DNA of 64,000 bases. Source: an uncultured Alphaproteobacteria bacterium (lineage in GTDB: Bacteria; Pseudomonadota; Alphaproteobacteria; Rs-D84). The stretch is taken from the NCBI GenBank assembly GCA_947367055.1, contig CANBCI010000001.1:62001-126000 (forward strand), written 5' to 3'. Of this stretch, positions 965 through 52,964 are shown one piece after another. The notes beneath the pieces are model-generated. The model saw nothing but the letters and a program-made list of their open reading frames with translations, did not search any database and was not told the DNA's origin. Numbering within the stretch: the first letter of the stretch is position 1; each line of letters begins with the position of its first letter. Made by a program: the position numbers and the translations under genes.

Positions 965-2206
965 GAATGCGGCGCCGGCGGTTATTACTGCCCCGGCGAC
1001 AATAACAGATACAGATGTCCCGCAAATAACCAAGATTTGGCGATATTATCCGGTGCCGAAGTTCTTGAGCAAAAGCAAGAATGGTCCAGCAGTTCCCCAC
1101 GTTCAACCAATGCCGGTCAATGCATGGGCGACGCTTACATAAAAACAGAATCTGGGACATATCTGGCGGAATGCTCGTGGAACGGCAAAAATTATTATGA
1201 TGCTTGTAACGGTGACTTTTTATGGTACGCGGCAAATACCGGGTATTACTTATATGGATATAAAAGCACATCGTGGGAAGCATGGTATAGCGGCGCGCGC
1301 GCATGCACAAATGCGCCGGCGAACTCGCACTATACAGGCGCCGGCGATCCGGAAACAAACAACTGCCCGTGGATATGCGATGCCGGATACTATCTGTCGG
1401 GCGGCAGCTGCGTACAGTGCGAATCCGTTTATTATTGCCCGGGCGACAACAACCGATATTCATGCCCCACCCCGCAAAGCGATAAATATTATACTTACGG
1501 CTGGGCATATTCAATAAACAGCCCAAAGGGCAGCACATCAATAACACAATGCAATCTGGACAGGGCCCTGGGGGAAACATGGATTTATGAATTCCAATAT
1601 AACGGCCTGTACCGCTGGACCGGTAAATGTTATTATTCCCCAGAAACAGAGATATACAACAACTGCGAAAACGACCGGTATTTTCGTGAATGCAATGCCG
1701 GGTATTATGCCAGCACAATTCCGCTGGGGCCGGGATTCTCCAATTCTTGCCAGCCGTGCGACGCCGGCTCATACACCAAGGCGGCCGGGCACCTGGGCAT
1801 AACGGGCAGCAACGATGATTCATACCATTACGCCACATCATGCACGTTATGTGAAACCGGTACTTACAATGACAAAAGCGCCGGCACATCGTGCACCGCA
1901 TGCACAAACGGGCCCGATAATTCGCATTATGTCGGAACGGGCGCCAATTCCGCCAATTGCCAGTGGGAATGCGACACAGGACATAACAAAACAGTCAAAA
2001 ACACCTGTGCGCCGGTATGTGATGCCGGAATAACCACACTGCGTGTTGGAAATATTTCAATACCGTTATACAAATCCCGAAACACCGCACCGGCATTGAA
2101 CATAGGTTTCAACGGCCAGGTATGCTATGGCGATTTGGCGGACGGTGATGCGGCCGGCGAATTAAACATAAATTACGGTGGAAAAACATATCACACGGCC
2201 AAATAA
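674..2206 (+). CDS. Exported cysteine-rich modular protein (paralogue 1)
   Basis: Function unknown. The start at 674 is chosen because GGAGGG sits 4 nt upstream and the product then opens with a signal peptide ending near the AYGAG residues. The mature part (about 475 residues) is built from repeated short modules of the type GYYLxxxxC, CPGDNNRYxCP and CxxCxxG. These resemble EGF or TNF-receptor-like repeats and are probably held by disulfides. The last 60 residues form a domain shared with the paralogue at 13207-14760: AGITTL, SIPLYK, QVCYG, then a YH-containing end. Its promoter, leader and first 97 codons are practically identical to that paralogue, in inverted orientation. Most likely a surface or periplasmic protein; signs of recent recombination are clear. 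Confidence 0.8.
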   Translation: MRHKSWIFSDKTMLNLIHRFLFSTLVLICVNPFAYGAGYTCPAYKKYTSCSSGYYLNGTGAGNSCDACPSGCTCAGGTAQPVCNCDPGYYKLNGECVECGAGGYYCPGDNNRYRCPANNQDLAILSGAEVLEQKQEWSSSSPRSTNAGQCMGDAYIKTESGTYLAECSWNGKNYYDACNGDFLWYAANTGYYLYGYKSTSWEAWYSGARACTNAPANSHYTGAGDPETNNCPWICDAGYYLSGGSCVQCESVYYCPGDNNRYSCPTPQSDKYYTYGWAYSINSPKGSTSITQCNLDRALGETWIYEFQYNGLYRWTGKCYYSPETEIYNNCENDRYFRECNAGYYASTIPLGPGFSNSCQPCDAGSYTKAAGHLGITGSNDDSYHYATSCTLCETGTYNDKSAGTSCTACTNGPDNSHYVGTGANSANCQWECDTGHNKTVKNTCAPVCDAGITTLRVGNISIPLYKSRNTAPALNIGFNGQVCYGDLADGDAAGELNINYGGKTYHTAK

Positions 2207-20241: not shown

Positions 20242-20432
20242 AAAAACCACCAAAAAACGGTGGCTGGGGGATGAGAACAACTTCGAGAAATTGTGGGCTT
20301 ATTTATCTATATCGCCGCCCCCCAGCACTCTGGCCGGGGCACTTTTCATCACACAAAAAAAGACACTTTTACGCTTTTTTAGCATGACGCTCGAAAAGGG
20401 TTCTCATACCCGTCGACAGAACACCCGTCGAC
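20242..20432 (-). ncRNA. Structured leader RNA, copy A (unassigned family)
   Basis: Candidate 191-nt RNA, listed in RNA sense. Hairpin H1 spans 20432-20412 (7-bp stem, loop GGUGUUC). Hairpin H2 is at 20411-20398 (GGG, loop UAUGAGAA, CCC). Seven bases of the H2 loop (20407-20401) pair with 20277-20271. Helix P3 pairs 20395-20390 with 20287-20282 and encloses two hairpins plus the motif GAUAUAGAUAAAUA (20313-20300) and ACAAUU (20294-20289). The terminator CCACC/GGTGG plus five T is at 20263-20242. Copies B and C keep the same order with changed but paired bases. Whether it works in cis on the gene at 20220 or as a free RNA is not known. Confidence 0.75.
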
Positions 20433-47013: not shown

Positions 47014-47226
47014 GTCACAGGGAATTTCTGTGACGGGGCGTCGAAACCCCTTATAGAGGGTCCGGATTATTCCGGACATTTATGGCACAACGAAATAATT
47101 GCTTATTTTCATGGTTGTGCCGCCTTCCAACCACACAGGTTGGAGGATGGCTGAATATATTGAATAGGCCTGCAATTCTCTATAATTGTTTCGAACCTCC
47201 AACCACTTGATTTTTCAGTGGTTTTT
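47014..47226 (+). ncRNA. Structured leader RNA, copy C (unassigned family)
   Basis: Candidate 213-nt RNA. H1 is at 47014-47034 (7-bp stem, loop GGAAUUU). H2 is at 47035-47050 (GGGG, loop CGUCGAAA, CCCC), and its loop bases 47041-47046 pair with 47189-47194. P3 pairs 47051-47058 with 47178-47185 (8 bp). Inside P3 are perfect hairpins at 47060-47077, 47084-47121 (8 bp) and 47124-47146 (9 bp), then GAAUAUAUUGAAUA (47153-47166, identical to copy B) and GCAAUU (47172-47177). CCUCC is at 47196-47200, and the terminator is at 47203-47226. A weak promoter (TTTACC, 16 nt, TAAAAA) lies just upstream. Confidence 0.75.
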
Positions 47227-47265: not shown

Positions 47266-47877
47266 ATGAAATACGTTACGTTAATTTTCTGCATAATGCT
47301 GTCAATGCCGGCATTTGCATACCTGCAGGTTTCCAGCGGTTCCGCACCCGGCACATGGTGCGACAGTGAGTGTACCTGGGGCGGATGCGGCGTGTTCAGA
47401 CAAATACAATGTGACTTTGATTGTGACACAATCGCCGACGAACTGACATCCCGGGGTGACTGCACCGATGACAATAGCGAATATTGCTATTTTGGAAAAA
47501 CCGGAAACACATATTATTACTGCGACCAAGGCGGCGAAGGGGCATGCTCAAATATTAGCGGCACCGCAAACATAAATCAAAACAGCAGCTGGGAAACACT
47601 CAACGCATCAAGACACAGTGTATTAAGCCACACATTTCACGTATCGGAACAAGAATACGACATATGCATAATCGGCCTGGTCAGAACAAATTACGGATGC
47701 GCGGCCGGATATTATGCAACACAAAACACCGGCACAGCAAACATAGTCTGCAGTCCGTGCCCCGCCGGCGGCAGCAGCGATTTGGGAAACACCGGTCAAT
47801 CCGGATGCTATCTACGTCCCGGTAACTTTAGCGACGCAAGCGGCACCGGGCAGTATACCGCAAACTGCTATTGGTAA
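47266..47877 (+). CDS. Exported cysteine-rich protein downstream of structured RNA C
   Basis: Function unknown; 203 residues. The signal peptide MKYVTLIFCIMLSMPAFA precedes about 20 Cys (WCDSECTWGGCG, CDFDCD, CSPCPAGGSS) and a tail GCYLRPGNFSDASGTGQYTANCYW that resembles modules in the larger cysteine-rich paralogues. The start at 47266 begins the signal peptide; the AGGGGGA site is rather far (11 nt). It is preceded by a structured RNA with its terminator and followed by a second terminator. Confidence 0.7.
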   Translation: MKYVTLIFCIMLSMPAFAYLQVSSGSAPGTWCDSECTWGGCGVFRQIQCDFDCDTIADELTSRGDCTDDNSEYCYFGKTGNTYYYCDQGGEGACSNISGTANINQNSSWETLNASRHSVLSHTFHVSEQEYDICIIGLVRTNYGCAAGYYATQNTGTANIVCSPCPAGGSSDLGNTGQSGCYLRPGNFSDASGTGQYTANCYW

Positions 47878-51923: not shown

Positions 51924-52694
51924 TTATTCCATGCATTCGGGTTCATCCGGAAACTCTTCGCAGAGTTCGTCTGCCTCGTCTGTACTATCCGCATCCTGTT
52001 CGGGTGCGTTATCTTGCTTGGAATCTTGTTCGACCGCCGCCGCCGATATTGCAACATTTTCTGGATTGTTTTTTTGCGGAACACTTACCGCGTCGCCATT
52101 ATTCGCCGCGGGATTTTCCGTCATCGGTCGAATGTCGGTGTTCTGCGCCGCCGCCGTGTTATCTTTTATCCCGCCCAGGGATGCGGCGGACGCAATCATT
52201 GCGATGCCTGCGCTTATATCATTTGACGAACTATCGGATTCAACACGCCGCACTGCGGACGTCATTTGGTATTCCGGCGACGCGGCCGCAACTTTGTACA
52301 GGCGCCCATCGGCATCAATAATGTTTTCAAAATCCGGCACGGGCGGCATGTCCAATTCATCCCGCAAGGCATTAACCCTTTGCAACAGATTGATATAAGA
52401 ATCACGCAGGCCAGCGAAAGGCTGGCCGGGTTCTGGCAACTTATGCGACTGCTTATAAGATACATGCGGATAATTGGACGAATAAATGCAATTTATGGTT
52501 GCTTGAAAATTCCGCATGTCTTGCGCGGCATCAACATCGGCCCGCGCCGTCGCCGTGGCAGATGCGATTTTTTCTACGCCCGCCGACATCATCCCCAGAT
52601 CCGCAGCATATCCGTTTTGATTTTGATCGCAATATGCATGAAAAGTCACACACAAATTTAATAAAACAATTAAAACGATTTTTCTGGCTCCCAT
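51924..52694 (-). CDS. Exported acidic protein downstream of structured RNA B
   Basis: Function unknown; 256 residues. A signal peptide (residues 1-22, KIVLIVLLNLCVTFHAYC) precedes a helical middle (VEKIASATATARADVDAAQDM, YINLLQRVNALRDEL) and a low-complexity Ala/Asn/Asp-rich region. The tail is very acidic (DSTDEADELCEEFPDEPECME). It is the first gene after the 206-nt structured RNA and its terminator, separated by a second small hairpin (about 52700-52728). Confidence 0.65.
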   Translation of the reverse strand: MGARKIVLIVLLNLCVTFHAYCDQNQNGYAADLGMMSAGVEKIASATATARADVDAAQDMRNFQATINCIYSSNYPHVSYKQSHKLPEPGQPFAGLRDSYINLLQRVNALRDELDMPPVPDFENIIDADGRLYKVAAASPEYQMTSAVRRVESDSSSNDISAGIAMIASAASLGGIKDNTAAAQNTDIRPMTENPAANNGDAVSVPQKNNPENVAISAAAVEQDSKQDNAPEQDADSTDEADELCEEFPDEPECME

Positions 52695-52723: not shown

Positions 52724-52929
52724 AAAAACCGTCAAACAATTGACGGTCGGGAGGCTAGAAACAATCCTATGAATTGCGCGCCGTATTCAATATATTCCGG
52801 CGCCCTCCCAACCGGGGGCTGGGACACATTTCATCGCAGGATAAAAAAACAGCGCATTAGCGCGCCATCCATATTCTGTGACGCATAGGCAAGAGGTTTC
52901 TAGGCCTCGTCAGCAGAACACCTGCTGAC
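52724..52929 (-). ncRNA. Structured leader RNA, copy B (unassigned family)
   Basis: Candidate 206-nt RNA, listed in RNA sense. H1 is at 52929-52909 (7-bp stem, loop GGUGUUC as in copy A). H2 is at 52908-52893 (GAGG, loop CCUAGAAA, CCUC), and loop bases 52903-52897 pair with 52761-52755. P3 pairs 52889-52884 with 52771-52766. Inside P3 are further hairpins, then GAAUAUAUUGAAUA (52797-52784) and GCAAUU (52777-52772). A second CCUC (52754-52751) can compete for GAGG. The terminator CCGTCAA/TTGACGG plus five T is at 52746-52724. Confidence 0.75.
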
Positions 52930-52935
52930 ATAATT

Positions 52936-52964
52936 ATTATGTCATTTATATATTTTTAACACAA
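52936..52964 (-). promoter_or_regulatory. Promoter of structured RNA B
   Basis: TTGTGT (52964-52959), a 17-nt spacer and CATAAT (52941-52936). The predicted start point coincides with the first base of hairpin H1. Confidence 0.6.

Follow-up and report, generated by a model that had tools for sequence, protein, structure and literature searches.

The terminator of a 206-nt RNA, here termed copy B, and a second helix in the same RNA that would act as an antiterminator are mutually exclusive, and both are conserved. We find this RNA to be one of about 50 copies of a leader RNA in the 0.96-Mb genome of Candidatus Enterousia from which the 64,000-nt stretch of DNA analysed here (the window) derives. 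Copy B is likely to be a cis-acting transcription attenuator that is OFF by default, a reading inferred from its sequence, there being no expression data. Candidatus Enterousia live in the gut and have genomes of roughly 0.75-1.0 Mb that encode about 900 genes (PMC12306168). No described RNA of this kind was found in the literature that we searched.

The preliminary description of copy B had claimed that it starts at the start point of a TTGTGT-17-CATAAT promoter, ends in a terminator 30 nt upstream of an exported acidic protein, and is followed by a second exported protein without an intervening terminator. These claims held: the RNA begins with a G at 52929 of the minus strand at the expected spacing, the gap between the RNA and the ATG measures 29 nt, and the second gene is an ORF of 199 aa (Table 1). 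TTGTGT is a weak -35 element, and this promoter is absent from the list returned by a consensus promoter scan. The 256-aa product of the first gene has a signal-peptide-like N-terminus and a mature pI of 4.2; neither protein has a Pfam match. The computed fold of copy B (-93.6 kcal/mol) is far more stable than those of its shuffles (-61.5 +/- 4.2 kcal/mol; z -7.66).

Table 1. Positions of copy B, its structural parts, neighbouring genes and relatives (window positions unless marked as own genome)
Feature	Position	Strand	Basis or remark
Promoter of copy B, TTGTGT-17 nt-CATAAT	52936-52964	-	sequence; 6 nt upstream of RNA start
RNA copy B, 206-nt leader element	52724-52929	-	fold z -7.66; R1 181 bits
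P1, 5' hairpin from RNA start	52909-52929	-	fold; compensatory changes at most pairs
5' strands of P2a (GAGGC) and P2b (UAGAAAC)	52896-52908	-	pair with 52762-52751; covarying
5' strand of P3 (CCUAUG)	52884-52889	-	pairs with 52771-52766
P4, variable-length arm	52832-52883	-	folds
Segment X, 5' arm of P5	52817-52825	-	pairs with Y in terminator fold
Segment Y, 3' arm of P5	52802-52814	-	pairs with X or Z; covariation
P6 hairpin, conserved loop GAAUAUAUUGAAUA (AAUA...AAUA)	52778-52803	-	kept in nearly all copies
P7 hairpin (CAAU/AUUG), alternative fold	52760-52778	-	3' strand of P3 forms its loop
Segment Z, putative antiterminator partner of Y	52744-52755	-	shares nucleotides with P2a and terminator foot
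Intrinsic terminator GACCGUCAA-UUGU-UUGACGGUU plus U run	52724-52748	-	sequence/fold
First gene, exported acidic protein, 256 aa	51924-52694	-	ATG at 52694; no Pfam family
Second gene, exported Cys-containing protein, 199 aa	51292-51891	-	ORF; no Pfam family
RNA copy A	47014-47226	+	R1 133 bits; fold z -9.0
RNA copy C	20242-20432	-	R1 130 bits; fold z -7.0
Second-subtype loci L087-L091, L093	own genome C4:16781, C2:171126, C2:33642, C3:119562, C1:177293, C2:115204
Tandem array L084	own genome C3:144100-145710
Tandem array L086	own genome C4:26941-27735
Tandem array L082	own genome C1:52070-52481
Tandem array L081	own genome C3:163609-163989
Tandem array L083	own genome C5:20836-21261

The argument for attenuation rests on two alternative folds. 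The first, which is the computed minimum in almost all copies, consists of P1, the P2/P3 stem, the variable P4, P5, P6 and the terminator, and 28 of its 40 predicted pairs show compensatory changes; here the X:Y duplex (-14.0 kcal/mol in copy B) and the long P2/P3 stem leave the terminator free. In the second fold Y exchanges X for Z (11 bp and -22.3 kcal/mol in copy B), P6 is kept, and P7 is built from what were the P3 and P2 strands. Over 80 copies, Y:Z averages -19.6 kcal/mol for cognate partners, against -14.8 for non-cognate ones and -8.5 for shuffled Z, and none of 10,000 permutations reached the cognate mean. Runs of consecutive Y:Z pairs average 8.8, as opposed to 5.4 +/- 0.3 with permuted partners. 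There are 30 distinct Y/Z pairs with two-sided changes (e.g. AU 31/UA 30 and CG 37/UA 20). Cognate X:Y partners likewise pair better than permuted ones, and Y:Z is the stronger of the two duplexes in 77 of the 80 copies. A P7 hairpin of at least 4 bp can form in all 80, by pair types such as ACAAU/AUUGU, ACUAU/AUAGU and ACUGU/ACAGU. The exclusion itself is direct, as Y:Z overlaps the terminator stem by a median of 4 nt, and by at least 2 nt in 75 of the 80 copies. Across the alignment the AAUA/AAUA loop of P6, the CACAAUUC strand and P2b are fixed. It may be objected that the Y-Z covariation could arise in part from the constraint of each segment by a third partner. This remains possible; against it, the two positions at which Z varies most have no partner in the terminator fold.

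The placement of the copies points in the same direction, the next start codon being almost always 15-40 nt away. An ORF starts 5-60 nt 3' of the RNA in 42 of 49 copies in the own genome and in 31 of 35 elsewhere, with median gaps of 26 and 28 nt respectively; nearly all of these ORFs begin with ATG and most have a Shine-Dalgarno-like stretch upstream. By an admittedly crude rule, 30 downstream ORFs of the own genome and 25 others have a signal-peptide-like start, compared with 21 of 59 genes of the window under the same rule. The families encoded behind the copies include OMP beta-barrels, a trypsin-like protease, PAP2, a PLD-like protein, GT8 and GT2 glycosyltransferases, XRE-type HTH proteins and an Mrr-type nuclease. 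On the 5' side, at least five of six matches to TATAAT occur within 18 nt of the RNA in 68 of 80 copies, mostly starting at -12 or -13.

A strong promoter between 52724 and 52694, which would make the gene independent of the RNA, had been named beforehand as what would refute a leader. The consensus scan gave one promoter-like site overlapping the terminator of copy B, the weak TTGACG-16-AAAAAT (52735-52708, 9/12 matches). Over the 80 copies, TATAAT-like hexamers are enriched upstream of the RNA (0.93 versus 0.56 in shuffles) and show no enrichment in the RNA-to-gene gap (0.33 versus 0.33 in its own shuffles); hence the comparative evidence does not support such a gap promoter. Taken together, the placement, the lack of any sign of a second promoter and the covarying helix that excludes the terminator support the earlier suggestion of a cis-regulatory leader.

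Copies A and C are related to copy B by simple sequence comparison (E 6e-12 and 2e-8), the three sharing about 63% identity. Copy A lies 39 nt upstream of an exported Cys-rich protein (47266-47877) and copy C 21 nt upstream of an exported protein (20220-19573). A DNA search recovered relatives of copy B in the same genus, and a covariance model built from 17 copies (R1), whose E-values are rough, gave 48 matches in the own genome at E < 1e-4, with copy B on top; 38 of these also pass E < 1e-10. Beyond this genome, 33 of 34 congeners have R1 matches, as do 9 of 18 genomes from the rest of the order and 17 of about 380 from elsewhere in the Alphaproteobacteria. That most genomes of the class lack a match serves as a negative control for the model. 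Some of the weak matches represent a second subtype or antisense artefacts.

A known family of the same fold is RF02221 (sRNA-Xcc1), whose Rfam model was curated by others and thus gives independent support. Its outer stem, AAUA hairpin, second hairpin and following ACC correspond to the fold and motif formed by Y:Z, P6 and P7, and this three-way fold can be recognised in copy B and in the 80 copies. RF02221 covers no more than the 3' half, over 87 positions, and is classed as a small RNA gene, whereas the leaders described here also contain P1, the P2/P3 stem, P4, X and the terminator, and precede genes for surface proteins. Against the curated gathering score of 53 bits, copy B scores 31.9 and the best copy of its genome 42, whereas L185, a distant relative found with R1, scores 56.2; other relatives reach 51.7 (L186), 44.1 (L188) and 43.0 (L179). 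We conclude that copy B is not to be counted as a member of RF02221 and that the kinship is that of a wider family. Searching the own genome with RF02221 yielded 12 matches (E 1.9e-6 to 0.01), nine of which coincide with R1 matches. In the reverse direction, R1 recognises relatives of RF02221 in plasmid records, one (L210) at full length with E 3e-5 and another (L207) at 0.005. Three of four such relatives have P2b and P3 helices where these would be expected, though only one beats all shuffles; hence the full-length architecture is likely in these records and not shown. Plasmid-record relatives precede BRO-family, uncharacterised and ORF6N genes. These findings suggest, by inference only, that sRNA-Xcc1, which was cloned as an 88-nt RNA in Xanthomonas (PMC2996969) and lies upstream of symE in Xanthomonas integrons (PMC12444791), represents the antiterminator half of a leader acting in cis.

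We propose the following mechanism. Polymerase would start at 52929, X would capture Y to form P5, and the P2/P3 stem would close, leaving Z to the terminator so that an RNA of about 206 nt is released. If some trigger opened P2/P3 and P5, or made the three-way junction of P6 and P7 more stable, Y would pair with Z; Y:Z would then occupy the foot of the terminator stem, no terminator would form beside the U-run, and polymerase would read through into the genes 29 nt downstream. That Y:Z acts as an antiterminator in the cell is an inference. The terminator fold is favoured over the alternative by a mean of 13 kcal/mol, which implies that the leader should be OFF by default. In computed folds of the RNA truncated at the end of Z, Y:Z is still not exposed; this and the large energy gap suggest that read-through requires an active trigger, of which we found no sign. 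The signal, be it a metabolite, a protein or another RNA, may act at the P6/P7 junction or on the 5' half. Candidate triggers are a small molecule or protein bound at the junction, loss or sequestration of the 5' half, and pairing with another copy.

Besides the large energy gap and the missing trigger, what speaks against attenuation is that in tandem arrays several copies are not directly followed by a gene. As some copies, chiefly tandem ones, thus lack a direct ORF, a role in trans for some of them is not excluded. In its general form, this alternative holds that the RNA of about 200 nt or its 3' half is a trans-acting small RNA and that the downstream gene receives constant read-through. 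It can draw on the geneless tandem copies, several with their own promoter and terminator, on the cloning of sRNA-Xcc1 as an 88-nt RNA (PMC2996969), and on the Bartonella RNA Brt1, for which roles in cis as well as in trans have been proposed (PMC5387305). We nevertheless consider it unlikely, as the position before a start codon is kept over families and phyla, and in a purely trans-acting RNA the conservation of a helix incompatible with the terminator would have no obvious purpose.

Two further readings seem to us still less probable. The CI RNA of phage P4 is a model of attenuation controlled by an RNA in trans, and in the same manner Y of one, possibly processed, copy might pair with X or Z of the nascent transcripts of other copies, setting their termination and coupling all of them. 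In its favour are the three mutually complementary segments X, Y and Z within one leader, the Y cores common to many copies (two cores, in 19 and 15 copies), and the presence of RF02221 relatives before BRO and ORF6N genes, which are of the phage antirepressor type. Against it, Rfam scans gave no match to C4 antisense RNA, Y is buried in P5 of the released RNA, and the covariation is explained by intramolecular pairing; we judge it very unlikely. Also very unlikely is passive dosage control, in which a leaky terminator would give low constant expression and the upstream RNA would be the remnant of a mobile repeat. The high copy number and the tandem arrays with degenerate units would fit it, but the helices of both folds covary at about 60-70% identity, which shows long selection on structure and not a recent or decaying repeat. 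The cis-acting attenuator thus remains our preferred reading of copy B.

Several other candidates were considered and rejected. Readings as 6S RNA or SRP RNA were considered from the sequence and dropped, and no feature supported a T-box. A resemblance to the hammerhead (CUGAUG...GAAAC) is an accident of P1/P2 pairing that is not conserved, copy B having CUGACG. The identity of about 63% between the window copies and the compensatory changes argue against a MITE or other mobile repeat. For a type III toxin-antitoxin RNA, no tandem repeats were seen within the RNA, and the genes encode exported proteins without a Pfam match.

Among known systems, the nearest functional analogue of the attenuator proposed here is the Brt RNAs of Bartonella, a parallel drawn by analogy and without evidence of homology. 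Brt1-9 are multicopy RNAs of about 200 nt with their own promoter and a 3' terminator, directly upstream of a gene that is silent by default. They behave as attenuators: when Brt1 loses its 3' end, the gene that follows, trp1, is transcribed more strongly, and a reporter placed after brt1 increased with falling haem; a riboswitch function has been proposed (PMC5387305, PMC8070961). Brt RNAs have only XRE regulators downstream, whereas the leaders here mostly precede exported proteins; an XRE HTH gene lies behind L084 and L082 in the own genome and behind L199 and L201 elsewhere, and not behind copy B. The pyrophosphatase chain 3sw5, which we take to be from B. henselae, served as a probe for Bartonella genomes. 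Its best match in one class draw was 73% identical, and three family draws centred on the best matches contained nothing near-identical, so that no draw included a Bartonella-like genome.

Terminator-ending riboswitches and attenuators likewise carry, upstream of a gene, a terminator helix and an antiterminator helix that cannot coexist; the copy B leader differs from them in having no ligand, leader peptide or known aptamer and in occurring in about 50 copies per 0.96 Mb. A gathering-level Rfam scan of the window for known RNA families, riboswitches included, returned only two tRNAs. IsrK of the Salmonella Gifsy-1 prophage is a terminator-ended small RNA that is also the 5' part of an antirepressor read-through mRNA (PMC4825925). 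In IsrK, unlike the proposed leader, activation is at translation and by a short RNA in trans. The IsrK model gave a single weak, sub-threshold match (L008). The C4 antisense RNA family had no match in any Rfam scan run; c4-a1b1 gave one chance-level match.

If copy B is an attenuator, the choice of surface proteins made by the cell is probably set by the leader RNA, again an inference from sequence. One kind of RNA switch would then control dozens of secreted or surface proteins in a gut bacterium with a reduced genome, with far more copies than a riboswitch class usually has in a genome of this size. Further, sRNA-Xcc1 would be explained as the antiterminator half of a cis leader, and the Brt RNAs of Bartonella would gain a possible wider family. 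Since the 80 aligned copies reveal the fixed parts, the search for the signal would be tractable. A bolder reading, to which we incline slightly less than to its negation, is that these leaders are an unrecognised class of attenuators, with RF02221 as the antiterminator half, extending across Alphaproteobacteria, carried by mobile elements to other Proteobacteria and Desulfovibrionia, and serving as a surface-proteome switch in Enterousia. There, an expansion to about 50 leaders would amount to roughly one in twenty genes, and one signal sensed by the RNA, or RNA-RNA coupling between copies, would be the main switch of the surface proteome.

Some observations on divergent members of the family may be added. 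The second-subtype RNAs (Table 1) have a longer P6 (GGUUAUACAACAGGG...), follow the same X-Y-Z logic (GUCGGGAGG / CUUCCCGACC) and lie 23-35 nt upstream of signal-peptide-like ORFs; three RF02221 matches missed by R1 (C1:283863, C3:183740 and C1:219784) possibly belong to them. The tandem arrays of the own genome consist of 2-7 RNA units. Several of these units possess a promoter and a terminator, and a gene lies behind only some of them (XRE HTH, PLD-like, OMP), the upstream units being seemingly geneless.

Two records of the plasmid collection, NZ_CP119140.1 (Neisseria gonorrhoeae, 2.2 Mb) and NZ_AP026896.1 (Aeromonas caviae, 4.9 Mb), are labelled as plasmids and have chromosome-like sizes. 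L185 carries a second, divergent RF02221-like match (1215-1298, minus strand, 36.9 bits) about 290 nt away on the opposite strand. RF02221-like RNAs also occur at about 2350-2600 in L208, L209 and L210, from Pseudomonas, Nitratidesulfovibrio and Aeromonas records, a short way upstream of BRO, unknown and ORF6N genes, and the loci L209 and L210 share an upstream stretch, GTTTTTTTATGCCC, which may be a small ORF.
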